Part shown: positions 2,685-64,000 of the stretch, one piece after another
Position numbering within the stretch: position 1 is the first letter of the stretch
Layout: each line of letters opens with the position of its first letter
NCBI RefSeq assembly: GCF_020520425.1
Contig: NC_079487.1
Location: forward strand, 109,712,141-109,776,140
DNA from: Spinacia oleracea
Taxonomy: Eukaryota; Streptophyta; Magnoliopsida; Caryophyllales; Amaranthaceae
Reading direction: 5' to 3'
Length of the DNA: 64,000 bases
Made by a program: the position numbers and the translations under genes
The notes under the pieces: model-generated
The model's input: only the letters and a program-made list of their open reading frames with translations
What the model was told of the DNA's origin: nothing
The model's database searches: none

Positions 2685-4632
2685 ATCAGTACTTGGTGGA
2701 CCGTATAAACGGGAAGTTGCCAGGTTGGAAGGCTAGAATGGTGTCTTTGGCGGGCCGAGCCACCTTGGTCCAATCATCAATAAGCTCCATGGCATACTAT
2801 GCTATGCAAACCACTAAAATCCCAAGAACTACCTGTGATGAAATCGATAGGGTGTCCAGGAGATTCATGTGGGGAGGTAGTGAAGAGCAACGTGGAGTTC
2901 ACCTAGTTTCTTGGGACACAGTGACAAAAGATAAGGTTGACGGAGGTTTGGGAATTCGTTCCATGAGGCAAGCCAATGTCGCGTTTCTCACCAAACTTGG
3001 ATGGAGAGTCTTAGCAGAACCGAATACGCTATGGTCAAGGGTATTGCGGCATAAATACTGTGACGGAAGATGTGACCTTGACATGTTTAAACACAAACAA
3101 GGTTCATCTAATGCGTGGCGGGGAATGGTTGACAATATAGATATACTTCGGCAGGGTGTGGGGATCGCTTTAGGTAATGGAGGTAAAACGTTCTTCTGAC
3201 ATCATCGATGGATAGGGAAGAAGCCTCTACTGGAATCAGCAACAAAGGAACCACCTTTAAACCTGCAAGATGTCACAGTTCAAGAAATGTGGGACACGGA
3301 ACAGGGTTGGAGGTGGGAGGATTTTGCTGAATTTCTACCTCACAAGATACTGTAGGAAATTGATTCCTATGAATTAATAGAAGATGCAGAGGCTATTGAT
3401 AAAGTGTTCTGGTCTAGAACGAATTCGGGTACCTTTACCATTAAATCGGCGCTGAAGATTATTCGAGGGGAGCTTGATGTGGGAGCTACAGAGCATTGGA
3501 ATTTTATGTGGAAAATACCTATACCGCAAAGAATTCGATTTTTTTTATGGTTGGTCCTGCATAATAGGATTATGACCAACGCTAATTGATTTATTCGCAA
3601 GCTCACAGACGACCCACGCTGCCTTGTGTGTGGTGAGGTCAAGGAGAACATAGACCATGTGCTTCGCCGCTGCCCCATTGCTACACTGGTATGGCGTAAG
3701 TTTCCAGGAATTAATGACCATGAAATCTTCAGTGGGTCAGTGAATCAATGGATAATTCGCAACACAAAGCCTGACCCAATGCGAGATGAGAATTGGGTAA
3801 TTGTCTTCTGTACCACTCTCTAATGGATATGGAAGTGGAGGTGCAGTAGATGCTTTGGGAGACAACCTGAAATCCCAGTTGATCAATTGGGGTTTATTAT
3901 GGCCAAGGTGGGGCTAATAGTTCAAGCAATGCAAAGGTCTGTAGGGGAAGAAAGGAAAGGCATGCGGCCTGTGCAAAAGATTGGAGTTAGTTGGGTTAAA
4001 CTAAATACGGATGGAACCTCGAAAGGGTGTCCAGGACAAGCTGGCGCAGGAGGTATTATTCGTGGGAGCTGCGGTAGAAGCATTGGTATGTATGCAACGA
4101 ATTGTGGTATTGCATCAAGTACTAGGGCTGAATTCTTGGCTGTTTTGAAGGGTTTGGCATTGGCTTGGAACACGGGGCAACGGAAGGTTGTCTTGGAGGT
4201 AGACTCAGTGGTAGTAGTGTGTACCCTGCTAGGAGAAGATATACCTAGCTCTCTATATTATCACATCATACGTAGGTGCAAAGAAATGATCTCGAAGCAA
4301 GCGTGGGTTGTAGAGGTACAACATTGCTATAGCGAAGCTAACCGGGCTGCCGATTGGTTAGCCAACTATGGTGTGGGCCTTAATCCCAAGCTTGGTATCA
4401 TGGAAGCGGCTCCCCCGAGTCTTTGAGCCATTTTATTGAAGGATCTAAGTGGAATAACATTGCTGCGAAAAGTTCCCGCAGTTGCAGCATGAAGAACGAA
4501 GGGATATGGTGTAGCTTAGGCCTTTTGTTTTGTTTTCTTAGTTTTGATGTTTCTGCTTTTTCTTTTGTTTTCTCTTGGTTTTGCTTTTTGATTAATCTAT
4601 TGGGCTAAGCCCGTCTTCTTCACCAAAAAAAA

Positions 4633-13868: not shown

Positions 13869-16800
13869 CTAAAAATCCAGAGGCATTTTGAAGAGGTTAT
13901 TTATATCATCCATAGCTTCTCTTGTAAAGATCGTTGGTTCATGTTGTAAATCGTGGTTATTTTTGCTTGAAAACTTTTGTGGAGGTAGTTGTGGACCTTC
14001 CGAAGTATTAAATTCATCATCTGCAAGTATTGAAAACCCACCAAAATCATTTTTACCTGAGGCAGCTGTTGCTTGTGCCTGTCTTTTCCTTCTGGTGGTC
14101 CTGACAAAATCTATTGGCTTCCCAAACATGCCATTGATATCTTCCATAGCTTCTTTAAGGTTAACGGTTGGTTCCACCAACCCGTGGTGGCAGATATTTT
14201 CCACCTCTGGATCATCTAGAATAGCTGAACCAACAAATCTATGAACAACTGTGTCCTCCCTAAATTTGGTTCTGGTTTTTCTAGATGATTTCTCCACTTT
14301 CATCTCATTGGAAGACCCTGATAGGTGATCTCGAGGCCTTAAAAACACAAATGCATCGACTCTTGAAGAAGATGATGGGGAACCATCTGTTAATGTTTGA
14401 GACTCACTTGGTTCCGAATCATTGTTTGACTCATCATCAACAAATATCTTGAATGGTTCTTGGGGAGGCTGCTCTGTTTTATTTTGTGGCACTTGAAAAT
14501 TTTCCTTGTCGTTTTGATTACTTGATCTAACTACATTATCTTGATTATCATCATCAATAAACACCTCAAGTACAGTGCTTCTGCTTTGATCTACCTTGGG
14601 TTTCTCTCTATGTGTTCTTCGAACAGCATTTGCAGTCTCAATAGGTTCTTTAAACATGCTATTTATTGCATTCATGGCCTCTTTCATGTTTATGGTAGGT
14701 TCTACGAGGCCATGATGACAGGCATCTTCTGTTTCAGATCTTCCAACAATTGCAGAATCCACGAACTTGGTCACAACAGAATCATCTCTGTATAACTTGC
14801 TTTCAGCACCTTTCTTTACCATATTTTGTGGACAATCGGTTAATATGCTCCTAGAATTGACAGGCTGTTTCTTAAAGGAAGATTTCTTGATCAAGGGTAC
14901 TTCAGAATTTCCATTAACCTTGCATAAATTTTCTTTATTCTCCCCAGAGCTGCAAGTTGGGCCAGTAGTGAAAGAAATTGACAAAGGTCTCTTAGTTCTC
15001 CTCTCCCCACACTGTATCAAATAGTGAGTAAAACAGTAAAGGACTTTGGTTCCTTAAGTGTAGAACTGTTAAAAGTTTAAGAATAGAGTTGGAGAAGTAA
15101 CCTGAAGTCTCTTATTCATGTGCCGTTTCATCCGTTGTATAAACTGTTCATATGATTTCTCCAATTCACCAAAAGGTTCTGCAAGGCTTCACAGAAGTTC
15201 AGAGAACGTAAGTAAATATAACTCTGTTGCACAAAAAAACCGTCATACTCAAACATCATATGAACAAATGATCCCATGTTTTATGCCTAACATAGACCAT
15301 GTAATTTCATACATAACCCTCTAACAATACCCAGAATATACAAGCACACCAATAAGCTGAGAATACATGGATACTGAAGAATCTTAGATTATAAGCTCCA
15401 CAGATATCGAAACCAGTGACTGAGAAATTATTAGCAAATACTCTTTTATCTCAGTTGATTTCTTCAGTCTCGTATTGAGATTCAAAATCAGCTATTACGT
15501 GAAGTGTAAATATCCCAAGGCATGGGACTATGGGAGACCGTATTCAGTCAATAAACATGTCACTTATCTGTTGTAGTAAATTGAACGGAACAATAATTTG
15601 TGTGTTACCTAGAATTCACCATGACGGTCTTATTATTTTGTTTCAAATAGGCACAGATTTCTTTGAAAGAACCATCCCAAGGCATGGGACTATGGGAGAC
15701 CGTATTCAGTCAATAAACATGTCACTTATCTGTTGTAGTAAATTGAACGGAACAATAATTTGTGTGTTACCTAGAATTCACCATGACGGTCTTATTATTT
15801 TGTTTCAAATAGGCACAGATTTCTTTGAAAGAACCATCCGACTATCAAGTATATAATGAATAAGCTAATTGCAAATATGATCAAACATCTCTAAATCAAA
15901 CACAAGACTTTTACTTTGAGACAGAAGACAGTATTCCTTTCTATATAGTTCCATTAGATTGGGCGTAAAATGGTTTCCTACACATTTTGATTAGCAGAAT
16001 GATATAAGATACTAAAGGGGTCGGAACAAATCTTCCCATAACTTCAAATTTTAGAAGCCTAGTTTGTTCTTTTCTCAAAACAAAGGATTTGCTTCAGATA
16101 AGTTCAGCTTAGGGCTCATACATTCTGACACATTCAGTTTGGGAAACCAAGTTCAGAAAAGTTTAACTCGAGGTGGACAAGTCAACTTTTTAGTTTCAGA
16201 TCTAACAAGTCCAATAAGTTCTATGAAAGGGTACTAAATTACTCCAATAAGCTCAAACATAATCAGTAGCCCAAAAAAACTCAAAAAAGTGCTGATTTTC
16301 CTCTCATTCATATCCAAACTCCAACCTAAATGTGTCCAATAAGTTCTTAGGATCTGTTATTCTGAAAACAAATAAGCTCGAAATCGGAACAGTTCAGGAA
16401 ACTAACCATATTTCTTCTTCCATGAGTAAAAAGCCAACAATAAAATCTCCAATTTTTCCACCCCACTAAGGCATTAACTATTAATAACCACAAATTAGCA
16501 ACAAATACCCTCTAGGGTTTCAACCAAAACCACATTTTCAACAGCAAAGAAAACCCAAATTGTTGAAGTAAACCACAAGCTAACATTACACAGCTACAAT
16601 CTCTATATACAATACTTTTCCCCTTAAATAATTGCAATTGAAGTCTTGAAATTGGACAAAGAAATTCACTGCAACTTACTTTTGAACCCCCAAAAGATAC
16701 ATTTTTTCAGCATCATCAAATTTTTTAATCTTCTCATAATAAAGCGCATACGCCTGATAAAATAGACACCGCTTCTTCCCAATCTTCTTCGTCTCCATAG

Positions 16801-25793: not shown

Positions 25794-25988
25794 GGAAAAT
25801 CTTCTCTAAGAAAAAGGAGAACAAAAAAAAGCACAATATTGGGCGAAATGCGTTGAACTTGTAAGCAAGTGTAGAAGAGGCCGTAAATTCTCGCTGTCAC
25901 TTCCAGTCTTCCGCTTCACGCCACCACAGCCACCACAGCCACCACCGCCTTCCCCAATTCCATCCTCTCTTTTTCTCTCTCTTTAACA
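25794..25988 (+). promoter_or_regulatory. Immediate upstream region of SAM50
   Basis: Only 195 bp separate the Harbinger right end from the SAM50 start codon. The last part (25900-25988) is a C-rich and CT-rich leader. Any further promoter sequence must be within or beyond the transposon, 17259-17957 on the far side. Confidence 0.6.
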
Positions 25989-28900
25989 ATGGCAGTCATA
26001 ACCAAAGAACCCAGCCACCCACCACCAACCACCGAGAGCAACCCTATCTCCACCAATGGCGACGCCGGAGACGAGCCAGAAGCAGAAGAAAACGACAACG
26101 ATGAAGAAGAAGACGTAGATGAAGCTGACGAGGAGGAAGAGGAATTCGAATCTCCAGCGACGGAAGCATCTAACATCGGTATAACTAAGGAAAAAATGAC
26201 GAAGTTCGCGAATCGATTGAGTTCCGAACCGATTGCGCTAAGAGTTCACGATGTGATTATCAAGGGGAATATCAAAACTAAGGATTCTGTAATTGAAGCA
26301 GAGATTTTGAATGACCTAAAACGAGCTTCTACGCTTCAGGAGATCGTTCAAGCTACCGCAATCGCTAATGCAAAGCTTCGGCAGCTTGATATTTTCGATT
26401 CGGTTAACTTTACCATTGATTCCGGCCCGAAAGAGTTGCCGGGTACTGCGAATCTTGTTATCGAGGTTACGGAGACGAAGAACCCTCTCACTGGTGAAAT
26501 TGGTTTGTTCACTAAGCCTGGGGTAAACTTCTTTTGATCACATTTTGATTTTGTTCTTTGAATTTGTTATTTCTGTCAATTGCATAGTGCTTCAAAAAAT
26601 TGCTGATTTGACTTTTGGAAGTTGTTTGATTGTGTTATTGAAATTGTACTGCTTCTATGAAAATGTTGTAAATTATGAGAAGCTAACCGAATTTGGGGCA
26701 ACGATAGGGTATGAGTGTCGAATTGTGGTTGAACGCAGGTATCGGCTTGGAATGTTGATCCTTTCATACAAAACCTGTCAGAAGAGTACATTTATATAAT
26801 TATATAAATTACAAGGCTTAGGATCATTGATTGTAAGTTTATAACATTAGGACTTTGAATGTGGGTTTGATTGATTTTGACTGATAAACTCGTAAACGCT
26901 ATGGAGACTTGTGATGCTGTTGAGGTGCAATATCACTGGAATGCTTAATTTCTATATAGTATAAATAAGGGGCTATGGACTTCAGCTTTGCTTAGAAAAA
27001 ATAGTTTTCAGGTGCCGCGATATAGTTTGCTTTTATAGGTTATCAAATTAGTTGCTTAAAAGTTGTGTTCGGTAGAACTAGCTACTGGATTAGTAAACCT
27101 CCCAAATTACAATGGGTAGCTTTTCTAAAACACTAATTCCGCCATTGAAACCTTCGTAGAAATTTTACTTTAGCAAACAGGGGTTTCAACCGTTGAGTCA
27201 AAACTCTAGAAGTTCAGGAAAAAAAATCATCGTCAAACTGGGACTTGTTTTATATCTTTTAAGTATTTGGCAGGAGGTAGTGGGAGTATGCATAAATTAG
27301 TTGTCATGAGTAGTGTTGTAATCAAAACCTCGGAGAATGACTATTGGATGATTTAATGTGTTTCGTACCATAAACCAGGAGAATTTTGCAGTTTTAAATT
27401 TTTAATACGTCTATTTGGCTTAGAGTTATTAATCACTTGGACGGTATATGATTGAATTCTCCTGATACTGAACAGCTGTTGAATGCTTTGTGGAAATGTA
27501 GTTGCAGTGAGTTGGGTTTTGAGATTTGATGTTGAATATTTTTTGGGTTTCCGTAAGAGAAATTTTGTGTATATATAATTACAGAAACTCTTACCTATAC
27601 GGTAGAAAAAAAGCCGTAATAGGTCCTTCGGTGTAGCATTTTTTAATGTATGTCAACAGTTTTAGGTTCCTTACCGTCTCTCTGTATACCGTAATACCCT
27701 ATACATCATCTTCTATATCTGAAGATGACATCAGGACTGAAGTTGTATCTCCTGTAATAATTTGATAGAAGAGAGCTTGAGATTCCCACTGCAATTTTGC
27801 TTATAGAGGTCAAGATATAAGCAACCTCTCTGGCAAATAAAGGGGCAGTTTCTTGTACTGTACTAAAAGATTAGATAATTATATGAAAGGATTTCAAGAC
27901 CTGACCATTGTATTCTTCATAGGACTTCTAAAACTGTTTTTGGTTAAGACCTCAAGGCTGAAAAAGTATATTTCAGTAGACCTGCACAAAAACAAATCTT
28001 GTGTGTTGTCTCAAGTCAGATACCAGAATTAAGCATATGGATGCATTATTCATCCATAAAGACCAGTATCTTTACAGAATATGGGGACGTGTGGGATCTG
28101 CTCAATGATTTGGAAACTGGGCAGGTCGACTCGGGAATGGTCCAACTAGAAACTGGCAAATAGTCCGGTTCTCTTTACTAATATAGGGAAAAAATTGACA
28201 AGACAACTAGAATTTTAGGTTGAAACAAGGTGTACCTACTACCTAGTTATATAATTGCATATCTTCCGTAAAAGAGGACAGCCCACACTAATTTATGACA
28301 AAGATGAGAAGTTGGTCATACAATATGATGTCACCGGCAAGTCTGCTAGAGTGCTAGATTGAAGGCTGGCAAAGGTGATGCAGGATGACGGGGACCTGTT
28401 CGATTGAGAGAGTCAGAGAGATCTTTCAAGGATGTGAGCAAGTTTCAGCTTATAGGGAAAAATATTAGCTGTTATCATTAGCAGGATAAACAGGTTAAAA
28501 AAAAAATTGTTACTGATTTGTGGTTTGCACATGCTATGGACCTAGAAGCTATTTTCTAATCCTATAGAGTCATTTGGTCAAGGGCATTAGAATCAGTGCA
28601 GAAGTAAATTGTAACTGCTGAAATTATCAGCTTTGTAACAACTCTCTGTTAACTTTTATTTTTAAGGGGTAGTGCTTTCCATATTAAGATGTATTATATG
28701 GATTTATGGGGTAGTTGTAGGCCTTGTAGCCTTATATTAAGATATATTATATGGATTTATAGTACTCTCATTCTCCATATTAAGATGTATTATATGGATT
28801 TATGGATAGTTGTAGCCTTATATTTGGTATAGAAAATACTCCGTAAAAACTTGATTTCATCTTGGTATTTCAAATGTTCAACTCTGCATTACAAAAAACT

Positions 28901-31900
28901 CCCATAAGTGGGGAGACAAAGTTCATTTAAAAGGGAAAATGTCTTCACTAAAAGTAGAATTTGAACTTATTACAGATCTAATTAAAGGAATTTGCAAGTA
29001 TGAAAATAAAATAAAGCTTAAATTTTTTAAGATGGAGGCTAAGGCTCAGATATAGAGGAGAGGAGTTTGGTTTGAGGTGAACTCCTGCTTCCTATGTAAA
29101 GTATAGTCCATACCCTGTAGTGCTAAATCGTAAATTTCAGCTGTCCCCTTTATAGCTGAAACTTATTGTTACTTGCTACAAAACTGCAAGGGTAGAATCA
29201 ACCATCAACTTATTTGAAAATTGAGTTCTGGCATGCCATCAGAATTTGACAGAATTTTGAAAAATAATCTGAAGAAGGTTACAATATTTTTCGGATACCC
29301 GATAATGGTATGTGTGATTATTATTCCTTGATTATGGTGGGTGTACTGTATGCGTTTTGCTTACCATTTTGCTTATAGGTTCAAACAAACGGAGAGGCAT
29401 TTAAATTTGATGGTATGTGATATGAATAGGATCACAGCAGTTAACATTTTTTATGCCTTTGACACACTTATTCCATTTGTTTACATAGAGGTATTATTTT
29501 TCTTCCATCATTGACTTCTGCTGTTGATATACTTGTGTGATGTTGCTAAATCTGAAAATCGTTTTTATAGGCTAGATCATGGTCCCTCGAAGGAGGTTTG
29601 AAGCTGAAGAATCTGTTGGGTTATGCTGATGTTTGGGACGGATCTGTATCTTATGGATGGGATCAGACAACAGAGGTTAGTGCTGGGGTTGCACTTCCCA
29701 GATTCAGACATTTGCCTTCTCCTGTGTTTGCTCGAGCATCTCTACTCTCTCAAGACTGGCTAAAGTTCTCCTCATACAAAGAACAAGCATTAGGCTTTGG
29801 TCTTGGTTTACTATCTACTAGGAATCACGAATTGGTATACAATTTGACATGGCGTACCTTGACAGATCCATCACAAACGGCTGGTGAATCAGTAAGGAGA
29901 CAGCTGGGGCATAGTTTATTGTCCTCACTGAAATACACATTTAAAATTGATAAGAGGAACTCATCTTTGAGGCCTACTCGGGGATATGCTTTTAGTTTGA
30001 CTACTTTATTAGCCGGCCTTAATCCGGATAGTCGGAGTGCACGCTTCCTGCGGCAGGTATGTGTTATTCTTGTACAGATTCCTGGGATTGTTGTTTGTAT
30101 GAGTTCGAGTTGATTCAAGTTATAATATTATAAATCTTTATGTACATTTAAGCATCTTGTTTCCTGCTCCCCTATAATTAATTCTGGTTCCACATTTGGA
30201 GCTGCTTTGACTGGATCAATCCTAGTTAGTGATATAAAGTCGTACAAATATTACTTTAAGGCTTTGATTTTGTCCTGCCATTCCCATTCCCATTCCCATT
30301 CCCATTCCCATGCCCTTGCTCTTTTTTATGTATTATCGATCAGGTGCTGTCCCTAATCGGTATTAGACTTGTGTCTGCACTTCAAGTGGACAAGGATGCT
30401 TTGTCATCAATCTTTAAATATAATATAAGGAGTACATCCTCCTTGTTAATAAAAAAGGGTAACGCAAACTCGTTTCTTATGAATCCTAAACTTTGACAAT
30501 CTCTATTGTGAGGGTAATATTGATTCATTGGGTTGCATCAACCAGTTCTTTCTTCTCATTCGTTGCCTGATGGGTTGGTGATTTTTTTTTTAATCTTTTC
30601 CTTTGCATATACCAATGTGAAGTCTATTTCTGGACTTTTGATGGCCTATAGAAACTTTTGATGTACTTGATAGGTTAGATTTTTCCTTTACCAGCCCGAA
30701 GTGTATTTCTGGACTTTTGATAGCCTACAGAACTTCATATCCCTGCACCTGTCAATATTTTACTTGGTGAATGGATGAGAGGCTTAAGTAACAATTTTTT
30801 TTTGTTATCCTTGGGAATGAACTTTTAGCAATTCTATGAAATTCCTCTGTAACACTATGTTGGTTATTCAAGGACTTGGTTTGTAGACACCCATGGTATC
30901 TCTTAATGAGTTAATGGCCTCATGCACTCATTTTGTTCTTGAAACTCAATATTGAGTTGCTCTGGGGAAAACTTTAGCATATAAGGTAATAGGCTTCATG
31001 GACCTAGTCCTTTAATTCATAGAAAGGCTCGAGATTTCTTTCGGTATGAGGGATTTGTTTATCTTCTAAGGTCTTTGATTTAGTTGTATACCTGGGTATC
31101 TGACTCCGATAGTGGAACCTATCATTTGTTTGCTTTTGTCAGTGACATTTGGGTAGTTGATGTCTATGCCAATTTTACTAACTTGAATACTCGTAATATC
31201 GAGTGGACTATTTAGAGTAAATTGTTCCTATGATAAGAGTATAGACAATTATAGTGCATTAGGTTACTATTTACCATATCTTTCATGATTTGTCAACTTT
31301 GTTTCTTGTCCACTCTACAACCCAGCTGCTTTGATAGATTTGGTCGATCTGTGAATTATGAGCTGGAGCCATTTTAAGTTGATTTTATCAGATCTGCTGT
31401 TCAAGACAATTCTAAGTCAGCTATTTTGCTTATAATATCCTCAACAGGAGTGTGATTTCCGTTACGCACTGCCATTGGGATTTTATCACGCTGCACTTAA
31501 TCTTGGGGTCTCTGTTGGTCTTATTTTTCCATGGGGAAGGGGATTCTTGGATAGACCATCATCTCTGCCTGATAGATTCTTTCTGGGTGGCAATACTTCA
31601 CCAGTTTGTTCATTGGGAGGGCCAAGTTCAGTGTTGGGATTTAAGTGCCGAGGGCTTGGACCTACTGAACCACGGAGGCAAACTAGAGATAAACCTGATG
31701 GTGATTCCGAAGTTGCTGCTTCTGAGAGGGATGCTCTTGGTGGAGATCTTGCTGTCTCTGCATTTGCAGACCTTTCATTCGATCTTCCACTGAGAATTCT
31801 CAAGGAAGCTGGGATCCATGCTCATGTCTTTGCTTCAACTGGTAACCTTGTCAAATTAACAGAGAATGAGTGGCGCAAATTTTCGCCCAAGAGTTTCATG

Positions 31901-32212
31901 CAGTCATTTCGAACTACTGTTGGATGTGGGGTCATTATTCCCACAAAACTATTCCGTATGGAGGTTAGTATGTTTCTCCAAATGATTACCAATGTGAGAA
32001 ATAGATATAAATAAAAGCTCAATCCTTTTTATGGCAGAATGCAGTAGTTCTAATACCTTCATCTTCAGTTTTTCCACATTTCTTATAGCTTAAATGATCT
32101 TAAACTTGCTTTCTTTCTCATTGAACAGGTTAATTATTGTCATATTGTGAGGCAGTTTGAGCATGATCATGGAAAAACTGGTGTGCAGTTCAGCTTTTCT
32201 TCTCCATTTTGA
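25989..32212 (+). CDS. SAM50: SAM50/TOB55, Omp85-family insertase of the mitochondrial outer membrane, 539 aa
   Basis: Exons 25989-26522, 29571-30056, 31448-31963, 32129-32212; every intron is phase 0, 1620 nt in one frame. Residues 1-60 are very acidic; a single POTRA domain lies at about 84-163 (LRVHDVIIKGNIKTKDSV ... LVIEVTE). The Omp85 beta-barrel (Bac_surface_Ag) fills 180-539, with WSLEGGLKLKNLLGYAD, LRPTRGYAFSL, the loop-6 region LGFKCRGLGP, and a last strand carrying KTGVQFSF (528-535), a fit to the mitochondrial beta-signal. The protein folds beta-barrel proteins such as VDAC and TOM40 into the outer membrane. Length is usual for plants. Start: first ATG, downstream of a CT-rich leader. 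It is divergent from BMF3; a transposon nest separates them. Confidence 0.92.
26523..29570 (+). other. Intron 1 of SAM50, 3.05 kb
   Basis: No further exon is needed, since GLFTKPG joins ARSWSLEGG in phase 0. A local repeat lies at 28660-28830: three copies of 'tattaagatgtattatatggatttat'-type sequence separated by 'gtagttgtagcctt'. No other element with clear ends was seen. Confidence 0.7.
30057..31447 (+). other. Intron 2 of SAM50 with a CCCATT microsatellite
   Basis: A CCCATT hexamer run of about five to six copies occurs at 30278-30312. 'tatttctggacttttgat' occurs twice near 30625 and 30705, a small duplication. Otherwise AT-rich intron sequence. Confidence 0.75.
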
Positions 32213-37950: not shown

Positions 37951-38371
37951 ATAGTTGTTAAGCATGCCTCATCTGTACGAGTATATAGTACTAGTCTTAT
38001 ATGCACGCGATGCGTGCGGGAGTATACATGTAAAAATTAAAATCGTATTATTACAACTAATCATCACAAACAATACGCAAGAAAAAAACTATTCACAAAA
38101 TTCATCTAAAAAAAATTAGACATCATTGAAAGTATTCGAAGAAATTTATTTCTTATTTAAAAACGTATTATGTACGCACATATGGCTTCTGAGTCATGAC
38201 TAATCTCTATAATAGGCTAAGACCCTATTATGTTGGAAGTTTGGAACGAAATAATCTAAACTAAACTAATTCAAGTATAGTTAATTGAATTGAAATGAAC
38301 AGTACATATCACAAATTAAACTGAACTTTCCAAAAAAAACATAATAATCAATTTTATCCTCTTCCTTGAAA

Positions 38372-38953
38372 GAGTTGGGCTTTTTTGAAAGCAGCAATGC
38401 AGACTTGTAGGCTTGAATGTCCAATATCCACAAACACAATGTTAATTGGGTCATTTTCAGGAAGATATGTCTTGTAGATTCCCTAAGCCAATGCATTATC
38501 CGTGGTTTAATGAATCAATCTCAAAGGATGCAATCCAGCAATTGTAGTTGCATCTATGATAGCTCTTTTGCAGATCAGTGAAGTTGGGATTCCAATGCAG
38601 CAATCAACAACTGTTGCATTCAAATTTTTTCTGCTATTTGGTTTCTCCCAGGCACCTTGATCAAGGAAATTCCATCAGGACCTCAATTACCTTGAATGGC
38701 ATGGATTTGAGACTCCTTTGCAGCTCATGATCAGAAAAATGCCGACTTATTAATCTTTTAATCTGGGAAATAGTGGTTTTGGGGGCTCATCATTGCTGAT
38801 GTAGCTCCAGCTGTCCCAATAAACCGCTGCTTGTCACCAAAGCAAACAATTGATGGCGTTTCCCGCTTTGATTGATCATTAAGAACAACATCAATTCCTC
38901 TTTGCCAAAATCAAACCCAACCACAATCATCTTTAAAGCAACACGCGGTCAAC
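38372..38953 (-). pseudogene. Fragment of an HSP110-class HSP70 gene (HSP70-14/15 like) in the Helitron
   Basis: A splice acceptor 'cttttcag' at 38954 is followed by a short leader and ATG at 38930. Broken frames then read MIVVGFDFG, RGIDVVLNDQSKRETPSIVC, GDKQRFIGTAGATSAMMSPK, SQIKRLISRHFSDHELQRSL, VDCCIGIP, DATTIAGLHPLRLIHET, and finally GIYKTYLPENDPINIVFVDI with QVCIAAFKKAQL. These follow the N-terminal half of the ATPase domain of plant HSP110-type HSP70 proteins in order. Several frameshifts and an internal loss (the GEIRAFTPTQV region) make it non-functional. No introns interrupt the coding part, while a 5' leader intron seems kept, so the fragment came in as DNA or from a gene with few introns here. 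Confidence 0.8.
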
Positions 38954-40699
38954 CTGAAAAGAACAAAATGCATAGGTGTCAGGTCTTTCGTATAATTCAC
39001 TAATCCACACTAAACTATAACATGACGGGAATAAATCCACACTAAAACTATAACATGATGGGAATAAATGCAGTTTCCTAGAATCAAATGTCAACGCACA
39101 TAATACATGCAGATCATTTAAAAAAAATAACACAGCTTGTTACTTCTTAAAAATATAAAGCATCGCGTGCTGGGTTATATTGTGTGCTGGTTTATAATTG
39201 TGTGCTAGACCTATTCCTTCAACACCAGCAACATTACAATTTCTATCTTATAAAAGCATATGCATAGCTATTTGTCCTACTAATGAAATTTATAAGTTTT
39301 ATCTCTATCTTATAAAAGCATATGAAGCTAAGTTTTATCCTCTTCCTTGAATGTTTTTGGAAGAGTGCAATAGCTTATGTAATAGAAATAACTAAGTTGT
39401 TTGCTTGAAAAACATGGAACTAATGTCCATAACAACCTTAACCCCAAAGTAGAGGAAGGAACTTCCCAGACTGCCACCTTTCATGTCATCTGTTTTATCA
39501 AAAAGTAAAAGATATAGACTGTTGGACCATTCCATTCATTACCTTCATCTCAACTTCTCCCCTACTTGGTAGCTCTAAACCACAAAGCCAATATCCAGTT
39601 TAAGAAAAGGACTACTACTCCTCTTTCGCCTATTTCTCTAACCCCCAATTTTTGCAAGAGACAATCTGTCCAATGTCCATCACCTAGCCAATATAAATAA
39701 GTGCAATATACTACAATAGTCATGTTAGACGTTTATGCTTGGTAAAGTACCTATGAAAGTGGCATTATCAAATTTCAAATAGAAACAAAGACAGAAATAA
39801 TAACAATGCTTGTATGCCTCCAACTCCACGTGCCGCGGCCCTAGGATCATCTAGGCCACGCTGAATCACCCAACAAACTCTATATACACTAAATTAGATA
39901 ACATATTGAACCAAAATTCTACCAGCAACAACTACATAGGTGAGACTCACATTTAGTTTAAATGCATAAATCAAAAACCATTTAAGGAAATACATATAAC
40001 AGATTACTTTTCGTCATCTCATTAGACTGTGGTGATATCACAAATTGTTCTCGAGAACTAATGAGAACAATAATTTTAAAGCTAGGTTAGCCATCTGTTA
40101 AAGCTAGAAAAATCTGGTGATATCACAGAAAATGAGTGTGAGTCTGACAACTAATCTATTTTTCTCATTAGTTTACACATTTTCTAACTATTGTGTATTC
40201 GCAATATAAACTATTAGATTACATTGACCGTTCATTTAAGGAAATACATCCAAATTTGGAGTTCCATCTCATAATTAACTAATTGAGCAAAAATCAAAAG
40301 CCATGATTACCCAACATGCCTAAACAAAAACCAGTAGCTTAGTAGCACTACAACAACCTGTGTTCAGCATAATTAACCATCAAACAAAGCTGCAAAAAAC
40401 GTGTAAACTTTTTCAAAAGATAAAAGCTCCAGAAGCATGACGGAAAGCTTCATCCAACTGCTAGTTCACAAACATAAGGATTCAATAGACCAAATTGTAA
40501 CAGAGTAAGAGCTCTTAACATTCAGAAATCAGAACTCTAGCCTAGACCCTAACATTAGCTAGGAGGGATCCTAAGTGTGAGGTCCAAGGATAATCTGATA
40601 TTAGAATTGAAGGAGAATAAGACCCTCGGAGAGAAATTCCAAAATCTCTATTACATAAAGAAAAAAGAGAGAGTACTGAATTAAATTCAAAATTCATAC

Positions 40700-40781
40700 C
40701 TTGTACTCGTAAGTATCATCAACGTAATTCTTAGAGTACTGGATCTGACCCTCTAACTCCACCGCAATTGGGAATTTAAGT
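40700..40781 (-). pseudogene. First coding exon of a CKS1 gene captured by the Helitron
   Basis: Between a 'gcag' acceptor (40782) and a GTATG donor (40699) the minus strand reads ELEGQIQYSKNYVDDTYEYK. This matches the start of plant CKS1, the small cyclin-dependent kinase regulatory subunit (GQIQYS-KY-DDTYEY). The usual start Met before GQIQYS is replaced by Glu, and the exon ends right after YEY(R/K), where the CKS1 intron is expected. The following exon (HVVLPPEV ...) was not found in the element. Ancestral exon edge kept, so capture was at the DNA level. Confidence 0.8.
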
Positions 40782-41308
40782 CTGCAATACACAAAATCCC
40801 ATTCATTTTACAAATTGCTATATATCCTAATTTCATATTGATCAGCTAAAAAATCATAAACTCAAAGTAATTGGGTTTTTTTTAAGAGATACCCATATGA
40901 GAAAATGAATCAAATTGACCGAATACATGAAGAATTAGAAATAAGAATATAATTTTTTTTTTCATTTGAGTGACAAAAGATTGTATTTTTCAATCAAATT
41001 AGCAATTAAAAAAAACGGTAAGAGGATATTCATAGTTTCATACCTGATGAAGAAGTCATTGCCTATGTAAAAACTTCACCCAATAAAAAAATTCCAACTA
41101 CATAACACGAAATTGACATAAGTAAAGCAAAATTGAAACCCTAATTAAAACCCTAATTAATCGAAAATAAGAAATTGGGAAACTCAACTGGTTAGATGAT
41201 GATGAGGGTTTCGTTTTTGAAGAGATTCAACTTGAAAAGGGTCGATAGATGCCGCCTCCTTCTCCATCTCCACCAATTGATGATTAGAAAACCTCAATAA
41301 CACAAAGA

Positions 41309-41684
41309 TCAAACGAATAAGAACATAAGATTTAATCCGAATTTACCGAATCTTTTAGTGTGGAGGTTTTTCTTTTTTTCGAGAACTTTGAAGTTACTGG
41401 GGTGATAGAGTTGCTTCGTTTGCTCCTTTTCTTTTTCCTTTTCTCTCCTCCCTTTTCCATCGCCTCTTCTGGCAGTAGCAGCGAAACCTCGAGGACGGCG
41501 GTTGATTTGCGGTTGCGGTTGTGGCGGAGAATGAGATGTATTGGTGGGAATTTGAGTGGACGAAATTGTTAACGTTAGGGTTTGGGATTTGAAAGGGAAA
41601 CCCAAATGTAGCGGTGGAGGGAGTAGCGAGTGAACGACGAAGGGCTTGAGAGTGAAAGATAAAAGGGTGTTTTAGTCTTTTCAT
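41309..41684 (-). other. Unrecognised open stretch at the Helitron 5' end
   Basis: Two overlapping minus-strand frames are open here, one starting MKRLKHPFIFHSQALRR and one starting MGFPFKSQTLTLTISS. Neither matches a family I know. It may be the 5' leader of the captured CKS1 gene or part of a third captured gene. A downstream frame near 41273-41190 reads MEKEAASIDPFQVESLQ before a possible donor. Confidence 0.35.
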
Positions 41685-41743
41685 GGGGACACGAAAAGTG
41701 TTATTACCGAAATGCCCTCAGCTGTTCCTTTATATAATAGAGA

Positions 41744-42079
41744 TATACGTGTAGTTGATAATGCATGTGTTATTAGAACTTATAATTAAGTATTCAAAAA
41801 AATTAGAAGTATAGAGGAAAAGACAGACATACCTATTGTAAAGAGATACGAAGATCCGCATAAATAGGGTCACGTATTTTTAAACTACAAAGGTGTAAAT
41901 TAGAAGTTGGCAGGGGAGAAAAATATGAGAAAAAATAACAAAATGACAATGGAACGTACTGTTGGGAGTTGACTTTACAGCTTGTTTGATCAACACTGAA
42001 TCTCACTTACCAACGAATTATTCTTCAAAGTTGCATGTTTTTTTCAGCTATGTCATCAAGCTAAATCATTTATTCTGGT
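41744..42079. other. Spacer, no feature seen
   Basis: AT-rich, no gene or clear repeat between the Helitron and the next element. Confidence 0.5.
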
Positions 42080-42120: not shown

Positions 42121-42288
42121 TGTTAGACAATATTATGTAAATAATATTGTTACATAATTAGCCTTGTAAATATATTACGCTTAGTATTGTAATTATAGTA
42201 GGTATCTCTGTAACCCTAGTATACCGATACTATATATTCTGTGAATAATCAATACCAAGCCTTCAAGGCAGTATTCCTCCATCTATCA
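42121..42288 (+). repeat. Left LTR of the Copia element
   Basis: 168 bp, TGTTAGACAA to CTATCA, with a 'ctatatattctgtg' TATA-like stretch. Matches the right LTR at 46377-46544 base for base as far as I can read. Confidence 0.92.
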
Positions 42289-42998
42289 TGGTATCAGCCT
42301 AAAACCCTAAACCACCGCAACCCTAATCTTCTCTCTCCTAATCTCTCCCATACATCTCTTCTACAGACGCCATGGCTAAGGATGACGAAACACCAAAATC
42401 CTCTCCCGTTTTTCACCCTGCTCTCGGCGTCACCAACATCACGAACCTTGTTAAACTGACGCTCGACGTCAATCAGGTTCAGTATACTCCCTGGGTTACT
42501 CTCTTCCGCAACACCGCAAAGGCATATCACGTGTTTGACCATATTGATCCTACGGTCCCTCGACCAATGGACATCGATGACAGCTTGTGGGAACGCCTTG
42601 ATGCAATTGCACTTCAATGGATATACGGTACAATTACTACTGACCTTCTCTTCAAAGTTCTGGATGACAACGCAACGGCTATGGTGGTTTGGGATCGCTT
42701 GCGTAAACTTTTTCAGAACAACAAGGGCACCCGCGTCGTGCACCTGGAAAACCAATTTGGTAACACTCGTTTACAGGATTTCTCGACCCTCGACGAGTAT
42801 TGTCAGGCCTTGAGGACCATTTCGGTCCAACTTGCTTCCCTAGGCCATCCTGTATCAGAAGAACGTCTAGTCCTTCAACTCGTTGCCCGCCTCACTGATG
42901 AATATAAGACCATTGCCACCATTATTCAACAATCTGTTCCTCTCCCGTCGTTTGAAGAAGCCTGCGACAGTCTAGACTTGGATCGCCGGAGTCGCGAC

Positions 42999-43551
42999 TA
43001 GGGATGGCAACGGGTAGGATCTGGACCGGATCCTATAGGATCCAGATCCAGATCCGTTTTTTAGGCAAGGATCCAAATCCTACCCGGATCCGCTGGGTAA
43101 TGAATTTGAGGATCCAGATCCAGATCCAACGGATCCTACGGATCTGGGTCCAAAACGGATCCAAAACGGATCCTAACTTATTTTTTCATCAAACGACCTT
43201 AATTTTCATTTTAACCTTAAAACGATAAAACTTCAATAACAACGCTATTTGTCCATACAAGCATTCACTAAAATAAAATTTAACAAATCCAACATAAATA
43301 ATATTAAAAGTTCAATAATACTACAATTCTTAAGTCTTTATTTTTATATTTTTATATATATTTTTTATAAACAAGGGTAAATGGATCCGGATCCGGGTAA
43401 TGACTTAGGACCCGATCCAGATCCGTTTTTAAAACCAAGGATCCATATCCTACCCGGATCCGTCGGGTCCAAAAATTGAGGATCCAGATCCGTTGAAAAC
43501 GGATCTGGATCCACGGATCCGGGTCGGGTCCATTACCCACTGCCATCCCTA
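42999..43551. mobile_element. hAT MITE, 553 bp, inserted in the Copia gag region
   Basis: Ends TAGGGATGGCAACGGG and the inverse 'ccactgccatcccta'; perfect 8-bp duplication GTCGCGAC at 42991-42998 and 43552-43559. Interior full of 'ggatccggatccgggt' and 'cagatccagatcc' words. It is the same kind and size as 25203-25756. Confidence 0.92.
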
Positions 43552-46376
43552 GTCGCGACCATTCCATGCGCAGTGACGGAAAATCGTCAGCCACCGTTCT
43601 CGTTGCTCAAGCTGACTCGACGCCTCCTAACACTCACCATTCTCACTCTAACAATGGGGGTAAGGGAGGCCGGGGAAACAAAAATTACAAGGGGAAGAAC
43701 AAGTGGAATAATAATTCAGGCAACAAGGGTGGCGGACACGGCAGGGACAATCACGGCGGCAATGGCCGTGGCAATAATCAGCAGCAAACATTCCCCATGG
43801 TTCCTTATTACTGGGCTGCTCCTTATTCTTATCCACCTTGCCCTTATCCAACTCAACCACAAGGAGGATGGAGACCACAACAGGCCCAAGCTGGAATATT
43901 GGGCCCAGGCCCACGTCCTTCTCAGCAAAGTCAGCAGGTCTTTTTGACAAATGGGTATGGCTATCAACCTTATGGGAGTGGATTTCAGCCCACGGAACTT
44001 CCCCAATTCTTTAATGCAATGAATATACAGCAGCCCGATGATAATTGGTATATGGATACCGGTGCTACTTCTCACCTCATGAACAATTCAGGTATAAATT
44101 CCTCTGTTGTTAATTGGCGCAATTTAAATTCATATATTATGGTTGGTGATGGCACAAAAATACCAGTTAGCGGTTCGGGCTCTACCACATTTCCTGCACC
44201 CCTACCTCCCCTATCTCTCAAAAATATTCTATATGCTCCTAACATCATTAAAAATCTCATTTCTGTCCGACAATTTACATCTGATAATTCTGTCTCTGTT
44301 GAATTTGACCCTCTTGGTTTTTCTGTGAAGGACCTACGGACGGGGGCGATTTTGACCAGGTGCAATAGTGTGGGAAATCTATATCCAGTGTCTTCTACTA
44401 CCTCCTCTCCTACCTCTTCCTCAACATTTGCTGCTCTTTCACCAGATATTTGGCACAACCGTTTGGGACACCCGGGCACTCCCATCATTAGTTTTCTTAA
44501 GAAAAACAAGTTTATTCAATGTAATAAGGAAAATAGTTCCACCATTTGTTATGGTTGTCAAATGGGAAAACATTGTCGTCTCCCTTTTTCTAGCTCTCAT
44601 AATAGAACATATGCACCTTTTGATATAATACATACTGATCTTTTCACTTATCCTATTAATAGTCACACTGGTTTTCGTTATTACTTGGTTTTCCTTGATG
44701 ATTTTTCCCATTACACATGGGTCTTTCCACTTAAATCGAAAACAAGTGTATACTCCACATTCGTGCATTTTCATTCATATGTTCGAACTCAGTTCGGTCT
44801 CTCCATTAAATCTTTACAATGCGACAATGGACGTGAATACGATAATGACAGCTTTATTCTTTTTGGTAAACTTAATGGCATGATTTGGAGACACTCTTGC
44901 CCCAACACCTCTTCTCAAAATGGCAAAGCCGAACGTATGATTAGAACGATTAATAACATCTCCCGTTCTCTTCTGTTCCATGCCTCTCTTCCACCCTCCT
45001 TTTGGGTTGAATCCCTCAACATGGCTGTCTATCTTTTAAATATTCGCCCCACTCGCCTTCTAAATTTTCTTACACCCGTTCACGTGTTATTCAATAAATC
45101 ACCTTCTTATGATCATCTCCGTACCTTCGGGTGTCTATGCTACCCAAATCTATCGGCCACCTCCCCTCACAAAATGAGTCCACGCTCTACCCCGTGTGTC
45201 TTCCTTGGGTACCCAACTTCTCATCGGGGTTACCGGTGTTTAGACATCGGAACCAAGAAAATCATAATCTCTCGGCACGTTGTGTTTGATGAGTCTAAGT
45301 TTCCACATTCCTCTCACTACACTCCAAAAGCCAAAGATTTTGAGTTTCTATCTTCCCTAAATGAACCCATTATACCCCCTTTCCTTATTTACTCTACCCA
45401 TAGTCCAAATCAGGCCCACACTCCACCTCTTAGGCCTCATGGGCAGAATAGCCCACCTGTGACAAATGGGTCAGATCAAACCGCCACTAGTCACGTGCGG
45501 GCTACCCATGAACCTGATTCCCTTACACACGGTTCAGCAGCTCCTCCTTTGAGCCCAATACAATTCAGCGCCACACCTTCCACCCCTTTGGGCCATGCGT
45601 CTAGGCCCAATTCCCCTATTATGGATCCTAATTCTTCCATTCTCTCTTCTGGACCAAACAGTGGCTCCCTACCACTCCCATCCACAATCTCGCATGCACC
45701 TACTGCACAATCTTCCCCTATGCGCACTCGATCTCAGCATGGAATCTACAAACCAAATTCCAAATATGCCAACTATGCTCTCAACACCATCTCTACACCA
45801 AAAATATCACCCTTACCCCGTTCTCACCTCACTGCCCTCAAGGGCACTCTTGATTTTGGCATGCACTTCTCCTCTACGCCATCTTCCGGTATTGTCTCGT
45901 ACACGGACGCGGACTGGGGCGGCTGCCCCGATACCCGACGTTCCACCTCCGGGTTTTGCATCTTTCTTGGTGACAATCTTATTTCCTGGTCGTCTAAACG
46001 GCAAGCTACTCTTTCCCGGTCTAGTGCCGAAGCTGAATATCGTGGGGTCGCGAATGTTGTTGCTGAGACTTCATGGATACGCAACCTGTTGCTCGAGCTC
46101 CATTGCCCCTTGAAATCTGCAACTGTTGTCTACTGCGATAATATAAGTGCCATCTACATGTCTCACAATCCAGTGCAACATCAACGCACAAAGCACGTAG
46201 AGATGGACATTCACTTTGTGCGTGAGAAAGTGGCTCTTGGCCACGTCCGTGTGCTCCACGTCCCCTCTTCCTTTCAGTACGCTGACGTATTTACTAAGGG
46301 TCTCCCTCAACCATTATTCGTGGATTTCCGTTCCAGTCTAACCGCCCGTCCTCCTCCCGCTCCGACTGAGGGGGTG

Positions 46377-46544
46377 TGTTAGACAATATTATGTAAATAA
46401 TATTGTTACATAATTAGCCTTGTAAATATATTACGCTTAGTATTGTAATTATAGTAGGTATCTCTGTAACCCTAGTATACCGATACTATATATTCTGTGA
46501 ATAATCAATACCAAGCCTTCAAGGCAGTATTCCTCCATCTATCA
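46377..46544 (+). repeat. Right LTR of the Copia element
   Basis: 168 bp, same as the left LTR. Preceded by 'gactgagggggtg', the polypurine tract. Confidence 0.92.
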
Positions 46545-52296: not shown

Positions 52297-52849
52297 CCGT
52301 GGACTATGGACCGTGGTGCACATAGAAAATGGTGCACCAAAAGAACATATGTGCATAAACAAAAGAACATGACACTACGGCAAAAGAACATGCGATATAA
52401 TATTTCACTTTTTTGTTAAAAAAATAATATATTATTTTACTATTTATTAAAAACATAAAATAAAAATATACTCATGTTCTTTTCTCGTAACTAGATGTTC
52501 TTTCAATTATATACTAGTGTTTTTAAGGTGCACCATGCTCACTGTGCACCATGGTCCACCTTCTAAATTGCGCTTCCGTGGACTATGGACCATGGTGCAC
52601 ATAGAGCATGGTGCACCATGTGCACCAAAAGAACACATGTGCATAAACAAAAGATCATGACACTACGACCAAAGAACATGCAATATAATGTTTTACTTTT
52701 TTGTTATAAAAAATCACAATTTATTAAAAATATAAAAAAATATATGTCGATGTTCTTTTTACGTAACCATATGTTCTTTTAATTATACACTAATGTTCTC
52801 AAGGTGCACCATGCTCTATGTGCACCATGGTCCACCTTCTAAATTGCGG
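52297..52849. repeat. Two MITE-like units in tandem, about 279 bp each
   Basis: Unit 1 (52297-52575) and unit 2 (52576-52849) each start CCGTGGACTATGGACC and end 'ccatggtccaccttctaaattgcg'-like. Each unit has mirrored 'ggtgcacatag' / 'ctatgtgcacc' ends and 'aaaagaaca' inside. Both show the same junction word 'ttctaaattgcg'. Confidence 0.85.
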
Positions 52850-54392: not shown

Positions 54393-56654
54393 CACTACTA
54401 CAAAAAAGGGCATAGAGTACTGTTGAAATACACTTTATAAAACGCCTCAGAGGCGTTCTCCAACTCAGCGCACTATAAAGTTTATAATACGGGTAAAAGA
54501 AGCGTTTTATATACCTAGTTATAAAGTACAGTGATAAGAGATAAGCGTCCTCTATTCTCTTCCTAAAATTAGAAAATGAAGGAGGAATATAGAACGGTTA
54601 ACGTACATAACCGTCTCCTATACTCTATAATAAAGCGCCCCTTATATACATAAACGTCCTCTATTCTTCCTATTGAATATTGAGATACAGAACATCTTCC
54701 GTACATAGGCGTACTATATACTTCATGCTTAATATTAAGATAGCAAGCTGTTTCGGGTTAGGGTTCGGAAGTGCCCAGTCTTCCCACTTTCACGTGTTCT
54801 AATACCAATTGTTATTAAGTAATAGATTATGTAAATAAACTAAATATGTAAAGCATATATTATGCATGTCATCTAATTATGGGTAGTATAGAATCAGTAG
54901 ACTTAGCATATCATCAGCCCATGATTTACGCCATGATCAACGTCATAATTAGGCTAGAATATTGCTGAAGATTTACACTTGTATTTTGCATATATATTCC
55001 TATTCTATGAATAAAGAAGAATATGGAGTTATCACTTCTATCATTAACATTTAATTTAACACTTTGAAATTACAATTATAACACTTTGAAATTAAAATCA
55101 TCAAAATATTACAAACTTACAAAAATTAACATAAATGATTATAAGTTAGATTGTTAGAGTATACAATTTCAAAGAACAATTTAATTATAAAATAAGAACC
55201 CTTATGGCACACACTAAACGACCAACATCCGAAATCACCATCTTCGCTACGACCCGGAAACAACTTAAACCTGAAATCATTAGCAAGAAAAAAAAGGTTA
55301 GACCAAAAGAGTGATTTGTGATAAACAAGTACGAAGTACTTTGTACATTTATTTAATTGAATCACAAAAAGGAATATTAACAAATTATTCAGTTCTTAGA
55401 TGATCGGACATGCCTGAATCAAAATAAAAACTAGCTGTTTCTGAAATATGCTAGCACAATTGATCATAAATATCACAAATTTTAAACAATGAACTCAAAG
55501 AAAATAAAGTAGTGCACCATTAAAATCAAGTCAAACACCATTAACAGTCCATTTATAACTCTGAAAACAAATTAAACATCATAAAAACCCATTTGAAACA
55601 AACAAGAACCCAAATTAAAAAGCAACGAAAAATCAAATCAGAGAAAGAGGGCATACTTTCAGATATCTTGAAGTTTGTTTGTTCCTAATTATACGAGGAT
55701 TAATCCCCATAAGAAAACCATTAACTTGCATTTGCAACCCATTATGTAAGATCTGATTCCTAACCCATTAACATCCTTCGTTGTTGTCGAAACCCTTTCA
55801 ACAGATTTTCGCCTAATGTCCGAATTTCAAACACACGAGATGAAGAAAATGCGAACAAAATTCTGAAAAACAAAAACAAAATAAGATCAATATTAGTGCT
55901 TAATTAATTTTACAGAAAAAAACATTTGAGATTCAAAAATGTACATCGAGAAGTAGAAAATTTTGAGAAAATTCTGGAATGAACATCAAACTACTTCAAT
56001 AACAAAAAATTAGAAGCATGAAAATAGTGGAACTAAAAAAAATCAGATCAAGTTGCAATTCAGAAGTATTTGGTTGTACTTGCATGTGATTAACAATTGA
56101 TGATGATCTTAAATGACGATCTGAGGTTCATGAGGGAGACTTTGAAAGCTAGATCTGAAGAAACGGAAAGAAAAAAAACAGGTGCGAAGGAAGACAGAGA
56201 TGACAGTGCAAGGATGAAGAAAGTAATTGAAGAAAACTGTGGAGGCAAAATGAGGTGTGTTGGACTGTTGGGGGCCTAGGGGGCTAGGGTTTTGATAAAA
56301 ATAAAGGGAAGCACTTTGGAATTAAAGTTGTCCATAATCCTTTTTAAAAAAATAAGATGGCCACAAAAATTTTAAGCGTGAGAACTAAAACGTTTAAAAT
56401 AGTCCTATAGTCCTATAATATTAGCGGAAATTTATGAAATAGGGAATAGAGTACGGTTTGGGTGGATAACGTCCTATATTCAAAATATTTAATTTAAAAA
56501 AAGGAATAGAGAACAGTGGGCAGTCAAATGCGTTTCCTTGATTTTAATTCAGGAAACGGTTTTCTCACTTAACCGCTTTCTATTCTATAGAGGACGGTCG
56601 TGTCGTCGAGGCGTTTAATATCTTGTGTTTCCTTTTCCCAATTTTGTAGTAGTG
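54393..56654. mobile_element. Non-autonomous CACTA transposon, 2262 bp
   Basis: Starts CACTACTACAAAAAAGGGC and ends 'cccaattttgtagtagtg'; 3-bp duplication TGA at 54390-54392 and 56655-56657. Subterminal zones carry 'aacgcctcagaggcgttc' and related 'gcgttttata' and 'gaggcgttt' words. The middle (55126-56279) has gene-like texture: a minus-strand stretch near 55180-55275 reads FKLFPGRSEDGDFGCW after a 'tttcag', and a plus-strand frame starts at 56097. Neither is a product I recognise. Confidence 0.88.
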
Positions 56655-58651: not shown

Positions 58652-59724
58652 ATTTTTTTTTTTTTATAAAGTAAGAAAAGGAACTTAGGTACCCCTTCGC
58701 ACAAGGGTGTAGCCTAAGTAGTCACTCTGAACAATTTCATCTAACTTAGGGCTGGAGTTCGGGGAAATACACATAGGATTACAAATAAGATGACCTACAT
58801 TAGCAATCCAATCGGCTGCTCTGTTTGCTTCTCTGTATATGTGATTGATGTGAGCTGAGTCAAAACGCTGAAGGAGAATCTTGCTGTCATGAATAATGTT
58901 TTGTAGTTTCCAAGGGGGCTTCCAAGTACCTTTTAAAGAGTTAATCACTAGAAGATTATCTCCTTCGATGTGAATATCCTTTATACCTAGTCTTATAGCT
59001 TCTTGGATTCCTTTGTGTAGGGCCAGGGCTTCAGCCATATAGACTTGAGAGTTGCCGAAATTGAAAGCCTTAGCCTCGATAGCAGTCCCGGTGCTGCTTC
59101 TGATAATGATTCCTCCTGCTGCTGACGAAGATTTGCGAGAACCATCGAAGTTAAGTTTGAAGGCGCCTGTGGGAGGCGGAAACCACCTCACAAGGATGGT
59201 GGATGGAGTGGAGGATTGGTTAGGAGTAGTAGAATGAGTGGTGAAATGGGTACCTCTAAGTTGGTGAGAGTCAATAAGGATTCTGAATTCCCATTCTTTA
59301 AAGGTATTGAGGGCTCTGAAGAAACAGCGGCAAGTAGAGACCTTAGTATTGGAGAAGACTAAGGCATTACGTTCCTTCCAGATAATCCAGCATAGGTTGA
59401 TGAATTTGCGAAGAGCAACCTGATTTCGTCTGAGGTAGTCTAGAGTTTTGAAAAAATCGATCATCGGGAAGGTGAAATCTAGCCAGTTTTTGGTGAGTCT
59501 GTGGGTCCAGACATTTTTTGAGTGTTCACAATGGAGGAAAAGGTGGTCTAAATTTTCGCTAGCTTGATTACATCTTGGGCAGCAATTTGTAGGAATGATT
59601 TTTCTATGGAAAAGCGTTTCATAATTTGGAAGACTTTTATGACAGATTTGCCAAAGGAAAAATTTCAGTTTCGGAGCTAAATTAAGCTTCCAGATCCATC
59701 TAACACTAGTGGAAAAAGGGTCAT

Positions 59725-60075
59725 TTGCATCGCACTTTTAAGCACATTTGCGTCGCACATCGTGCGTGGCAAAAGCTCTCGACGCAAATGACTAAAAGTC
59801 ATTTGCGTCGCACATTTGTGCGACGCAAATGAACCTTATTTGCGTCGCACATTTAGCAAATGTGCGTTGCAAATGACTTTTCAGCACCATGCCTGAAAAG
59901 TCATTTGCAACGCACATTAGCTAAATGTGCGACGCAAATGACTTTTCAGCACCATGCCTAAAAAGTCATTTGCAACGCACATTAGCTAAATGTGCGACGC
60001 AAATGACTTTTAGGCGAAAAAAAAAAAGTCATTTGCCACGCACATTAGCTAAATGTGCGTTGCAAATGACTTTTT
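59725..60075. repeat. Left subterminal palindromic repeats of the CACTA
   Basis: Several copies of 'gtcatttgcgacgcacattt'-type units in both orientations, many as near-perfect hairpins such as 'cgcacattagctaaatgtgcg'. A matching zone at 63484-63775 uses 'cgcagatttgtaaatctgcg' instead, so the two ends differ in the hairpin core. Confidence 0.9.
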
Positions 60076-63483: not shown

Positions 63484-64000
63484 TCACTTGCGTTGTTCAA
63501 TTATACGCGTGTGTCATTTGCATCGCAGATTTGTAAATCTGCGTGGCAAATGACTCTAGGATGCTCCTAGAGTCATTTGCCACGCAGATTTGTAAATCTG
63601 CGACGCACTTGATTGAGTCATTTGCCTCGCAGCTTTGTTAATCTGCGATGCAAATGACTCTGGGGGGCATCCTAGAGTCATTTGCCTCGCAGTTTAACAA
63701 AGCTGCGACGCAAATGAGTAAATTTTATGCTAAAATTTGTTATTTGCATCACATGTTCAGAATGGCGTGGCAAATGCGGGGATGCAAATAAGCCTTTTTC
63801 CACTAGTGTAAACTTCCATTTGTCGTCAGTTTTGGGGAGGTCGTGAGCAAGCCAGGTTGCAGATTTAACTGAAAAGTCCCCAGAGTTTGTGCAGCCCCAG
63901 ATAGGAATATCCTGAAGGTTGTTCACAGGAATAGGAATCCCTCTAATCAATTGGACCGCATCAGGAGGAAGAACTGAATGTAACTTTGCAATATCCCAGT

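Follow-up and report, generated by a model that had tools for sequence, protein, structure and literature searches.

The 3753-bp segment between positions 37991 and 41743 of the window, by which we mean the whole 64-kb stretch of DNA analysed, is very probably an ordinary non-autonomous plant Helitron carrying host gene pieces that would have been taken up before the element inserted here. It is bounded by paired termini on one strand and lies between an A and a T. The limits given in the original prediction are right, and the element reads 5' to 3' on the minus strand, from its 5' end at 41743 to its 3' end at 37991. One of the host pieces is the broken beginning of an HSP110-class chaperone gene; the other is a short exon that probably comes from CKS1.

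Termini and orientation of the Helitron

On the minus strand, the 5' boundary of the element is A^TCTCTATTATATAAAG at 41743, which provides the 5' TC. The 5' terminus (41727-41743, minus) is preceded by the A at 41744, and the junction with the flank reads tacacgtatA^TCTCTATTATATAAAGG. The 3' terminus (37991-38017, minus) is formed by the hairpin GCACGC-ATC-GCGTGC, with a GC-rich stem of 6 bp and a loop of 3 nt, followed by the 8-nt spacer ATATAAGA, by CTAG and then by the T at 37990. The element thus ends with a CTRR sequence that has a GC-rich hairpin 8 nt upstream of it. An exact search of the 64-kb window found each terminus only once, and no second 3' end of this kind was detected in the window at up to three mismatches. 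When both termini were compared, the outer ends proved not to be complementary, so that they hold no terminal inverted repeat (TIR), and comparison of both flanks revealed no target duplication common to them. Insertion between A and T without a target-site duplication (TSD) and without a TIR is the canonical behaviour of a Helitron. Joined without the element, the flanks would read TACACGTATA^TACTATATAC on the minus strand, which is the predicted uninterrupted site.

Canonical Helitrons are described in PMC6591975 as having a 5'-TC, a CTRR-3', an AT insertion site and a GC-rich hairpin of 16-20 nt that lies 10-15 nt before the 3' end. The ends observed here match this description except for the hairpin, which is 15 nt long. 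The textbook ends that had been predicted (TC start, 6-bp stem, CTAG, A/T site) are therefore borne out, apart from this slightly short hairpin. A six-frame Pfam scan of the element at E values up to 1 gave no match to RepHel, the mark of an autonomous element, and we thus take the Helitron as non-autonomous.

We evaluated the ends by searching for a strict form of both termini on the same strand, namely ATCTCTAYTA at the 5' side, and at the 3' side CTAGT preceded by a stem of 6 bp or more whose GC content is 80% or higher. Although modelled on plant Helitrons, these criteria were chosen after the element had been seen. A single strict pair is present in the window, while none of 400 dinucleotide shuffles contained any pair within 20 kb. 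With looser criteria, a pair appeared by chance in 32 of 60 shuffled windows, and our confidence in the ends therefore comes from the strict form. Folding of the last 50 nt as single-stranded DNA predicts this same hairpin, at -6.9 kcal/mol (z -2.26); 5 of 200 shuffles did as well. With RNA parameters, the energies of the two ends, taken over their outer 60 nt, are nearly the same (-9.6 and -9.7 kcal/mol), so that fold energy by itself gives no evidence of orientation. As judged from its ends, a Helitron bearing host fragments is well supported.

Captured HSP110-class and CKS-like pieces

The original prediction placed in the element the N-terminal ATPase part of an HSP110-class chaperone, and the searches agree with it. 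A pseudo-exon at 38372-38953 (minus) follows a TTTTCAG acceptor-like sequence and comprises a short leader and an ATG at 38930. Homology to the N-terminal ATPase part extends from 38930 to 38372 on the minus strand. It was found in three frames, with Pfam HSP70 (PF00012) E values of 5.4e-14, 1.6e-07 and 3.2e-06, and covers positions 18-63, 43-91 and 125-208 of the 599 of the profile. The class was determined with the best piece, an 86-residue query carrying X at its two stops: it scores 56 bits against yeast Sse1 and 54 against human HSP105, as compared with 24 against bovine Hsp70. This difference of about 30 bits makes it clear that the fragment resembles the HSP110 class. The HSP piece is decayed. 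Since the homology occupies three frames, the stretch must contain at least two frameshifts, and its longest block holds two in-frame stops. From the ATG at 38930, 46 residues can be read before two stops; by eye, only some 12 at the beginning resemble the start of an HSP110 protein.

The second piece is an 82-nt probable exon at 40700-40781 (minus), preceded by TTGCAG, which is acceptor-like, and followed by the donor-like AAG^GTATGA. It contains 17 CKS-like residues, encoded at 40750-40700 (minus). Its identity with CKS1, which had been claimed from the start, is plausible insofar as all matches are to this one family, but judged blind these matches are not significant, with E values of 0.07 to 0.5. 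The Pfam profile PF01111 gave E values of 0.07 and 0.12, that is 13.7 and 13.0 bits, below the 27-bit cut-off curated for the CKS domain; the query is a single short exon. We consider it probable from these residues that 40781-40700 is a CKS1 exon, and it would then be the first coding exon of the gene. A fortuitous resemblance of 17 residues, which would leave the HSP110 piece as the sole captured gene, is fairly unlikely. The E values and the score of 13.7 against a cut-off of 27 bits are what such a resemblance would give, but CKS is the only Pfam family matching the peptide, and all five matches obtained with it in the PDB (E 0.34 to 0.5) are CKS/suc1 proteins. Moreover, the alignment begins at position 1 of the profile and stops at the donor-like GT. 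The initial observation is only partly confirmed, since the assignment to CKS1 is probable rather than firm. Its statement that both pieces stand in the same sense is correct: the CKS and HSP pieces follow the orientation of the Helitron, on the minus strand.

Apart from HSP70 and CKS, the six-frame Pfam scan (E up to 1) returned only YxzE (E 0.29) and DUF2172 (E 0.049), both sub-threshold and taken as chance matches. A third captured gene was considered at 41184-41700 (minus), where the sequence resembles by eye a leader or transit peptide, and was rejected as two peptides of this region had no Pfam match. A peptide from about 39830 likewise had no Pfam match. Rfam at gathering thresholds and ARAGORN detected nothing in the window. 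Helitron patterns and sequence found no match in prokaryote, viral and plasmid collections, a result that is uninformative on the copy number in the host.

Probable origin of the element and fate of its cargo

According to the origin that we favour, the Helitron would have been mobilised by RepHel supplied in trans from an autonomous relative and copied by a rolling-circle (peel-and-paste) mechanism from its TC end to its CTAG end, before inserting between A and T. By then, host DNA would already have entered its interior, either at once or stepwise. The captured DNA would consist of the 5' part of an HSP110-type gene and probably of the first coding exon of CKS1, both with adjoining intron-like or leader sequence. 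Both pieces look like the 5' parts of genes: the HSP110 piece retains a leader and a start codon, and the CKS1 piece would correspond to a first coding exon.

In order to examine the coding capacity of the element, we read fusions of the CKS exon to the HSP stretch in three frames, both as such and with a short exon-like piece upstream of the CKS exon (41062-41044). No in-frame ATG precedes the CKS residues, either within the CKS exon or in the short piece. When spliced at the TTTTCAG acceptor of the HSP stretch, the CKS frame continues as VDRVLL and then ends at a stop, 6 codons after the junction and still ahead of the HSP ATG. None of the splice forms read allows read-through from CKS into the HSP frame, and a CKS-HSP coding fusion was rejected. 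The lack of an ATG, the early stop and the broken HSP frame together exclude a fusion protein for these splice forms.

This leaves the possibility that the element yields non-coding RNA, either a chimera of CKS1 and HSP110 or small RNAs acting on the parent genes, which we regard as unlikely. Both pieces lie in sense to the Helitron and have splice-site-like borders, chimeric Helitron transcripts are reported in maize (PMC4528327), and captured fragments in maize elements are presented as siRNA reservoirs in PMC13317346. The exclusion of a coding fusion in the splice forms read weighs against this possibility. Its most specific version is highly improbable: a spliced non-coding RNA starting from the Helitron 5' end would join the CKS1 and HSP110 exons and tune both parents, directly or via small RNAs. 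If true, such an RNA would link cell-cycle and chaperone expression.

One feature of the element does not fit a single, simple Helitron. At 40644-40663 on the plus strand, the 5'-end motif recurs facing inward, with 18 of 20 nt complementary to the 5' end of the Helitron. The two copies form a 20-nt inverted repeat of 90% identity: its arm at 41725-41744 is the Helitron 5' end itself, its arm at 40644 shows A^TC, as a Helitron 5' end on the plus strand would, and the CKS exon lies between them. At up to two mismatches, the 17-nt 5' motif turned up in 3 of 100 shuffled windows, a mean of 0.03, and in none of 500 shuffles of the Helitron itself, so that the copy at 40644 is unlikely to have arisen by chance. 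At up to three mismatches, four 5'-like motifs are found in the window, three of them inside the Helitron, against 0.38 expected. Besides the exact 5' end, these are three motifs with two or three mismatches, two of which are internal to the element; those with three mismatches lie on the plus strand at 39302-39318 (inside the Helitron) and at 56577-56593. The copy at 40644 could be what is left of the end of another Helitron, which makes a single, simple history of capture slightly less likely.

Another reading assigns part or all of the fragments to a different element nested in the Helitron or mistaken for it: a TIR element of the Pack type, or a second Helitron running in the opposite direction. 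The inverted repeat brackets the CKS exon, its motif exceeds chance expectation (0.03 per shuffled window) and the arm at 40644 has the right form for a plus-strand Helitron 5' end. However, no TSD-like repeat of at least 3 nt was found at the outer edges of the arms with 4 nt of slack, the Helitron's own ends show neither TIR nor duplication, and the plus strand of the whole window holds no strict Helitron 3' end. This explanation is thus very unlikely. Its Pack-MULE variant finds no support: Pack-MULEs and other Pack-type TIR elements are defined by terminal inverted repeats and a target-site duplication, and here the Helitron ends have neither, while the internal 20-nt arms have no TSD.

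Exact repeats inside the element could be filler DNA from break repair, but this reading was not retained. The Helitron contains exact repeats of 21, 19 and 17 nt, where the longest in 300 shuffles of it measured 15 nt. These 17-21-nt repeats are not diagnostic, as repeats of such lengths are common elsewhere in the window. Among 16 tiles of 3753 bases covering positions 1 to 60048, we left out tile 37531, which is mostly Helitron; an exact repeat of at least 16 nt occurs in 14 of the 15 others, and a repeat of at least 21 nt in 9 of the 15. Tile 41284, one of these 15, overlaps the last 460 bases of the Helitron.

Comparison with known Helitrons and surroundings in the window

The combination of CKS1 with HSP70 had been noted as an unfamiliar one. 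The pairing is in itself unremarkable, since the capture of several gene fragments is well described in plant Helitrons, and such elements reportedly draw on many donors. In Brassica napus, PMC11986588 reports that 35.25% of gene-capturing Helitrons hold at least two fragments, that 73.26% of captured exons are UTRs and that captured pieces average 230 bp. The present element likewise carries several fragments, and its pieces from 5' parts fit the UTR majority. It differs in that the donors were identified in Brassica napus and not here, and in that its HSP piece measures about 580 bp. Maize Helitrons with gene fragments also contain several fragments per element, which PMC3288121 explains by stepwise capture inferred from related copies. 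The size of 3.75 kb is close to the maize mean of 4616 bp given in PMC2575219; the same paper indicates that capture occurs in Arabidopsis and rice but involves few genes, with mean Helitron lengths of 950 and 441 bp.

Literature searches combining Helitron with CKS1 and "gene fragments", or with "cyclin-dependent kinase regulatory subunit", returned nothing. Among the papers retrieved for Helitron and HSP70, no title or abstract beginning mentions a plant Helitron capturing an HSP110 gene, and "heat shock" was not found in the searched passages of the main text of PMC6544945. The Helitron at 37991-41743 constitutes one bounded example of a plant Helitron with host gene pieces, apparently the 5' parts of genes, and leaves the understanding of Helitrons unchanged. 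For annotation, its HSP70 and CKS1 pieces should not be called genes.

A Copia-type LTR element lies at 42121-46544, at a distance of 377 bp from the Helitron. Its LTRs (42121-42288 and 46377-46544) are identical over 168 bp and it is flanked by a 5-bp duplication, GCTGG, which indicates a young insertion. A frame of 961 codons in this element contains gag-pre-integrase, integrase and SH3-like domains, and no reverse-transcriptase match was found in it at E values up to 0.01. A second Helitron-like 3' end lies at 52514-52517 (minus), with a 7-bp stem and CTAG^T, a form expected 0.01 times per shuffled window, in surroundings rich in GTGCAC and CCATGG. The lone 5'-like candidate for it up to position 64000 has two mismatches and does not start with TC.

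RNase H-like (RVT_3) remnants, probably of LINE origin, are present at 3824-4423 and 58688-59737, one of them with a zf-RVT domain, and the window also contains a Pollen Ole e 1-like protein and plant-type retroelements. Along with the POTRA and Omp85 exons at 25887-32014, such contents suggest that the window comes from a flowering plant. At 15512-15839, an exact repeat of 166 nt recurs with a spacing of 162 bp, and an open reading frame runs through both copies. POTRA and Omp85 stretches at 25887-32014 belong to an outer-envelope protein gene, which we take to be of the OEP80/SAM50 kind.
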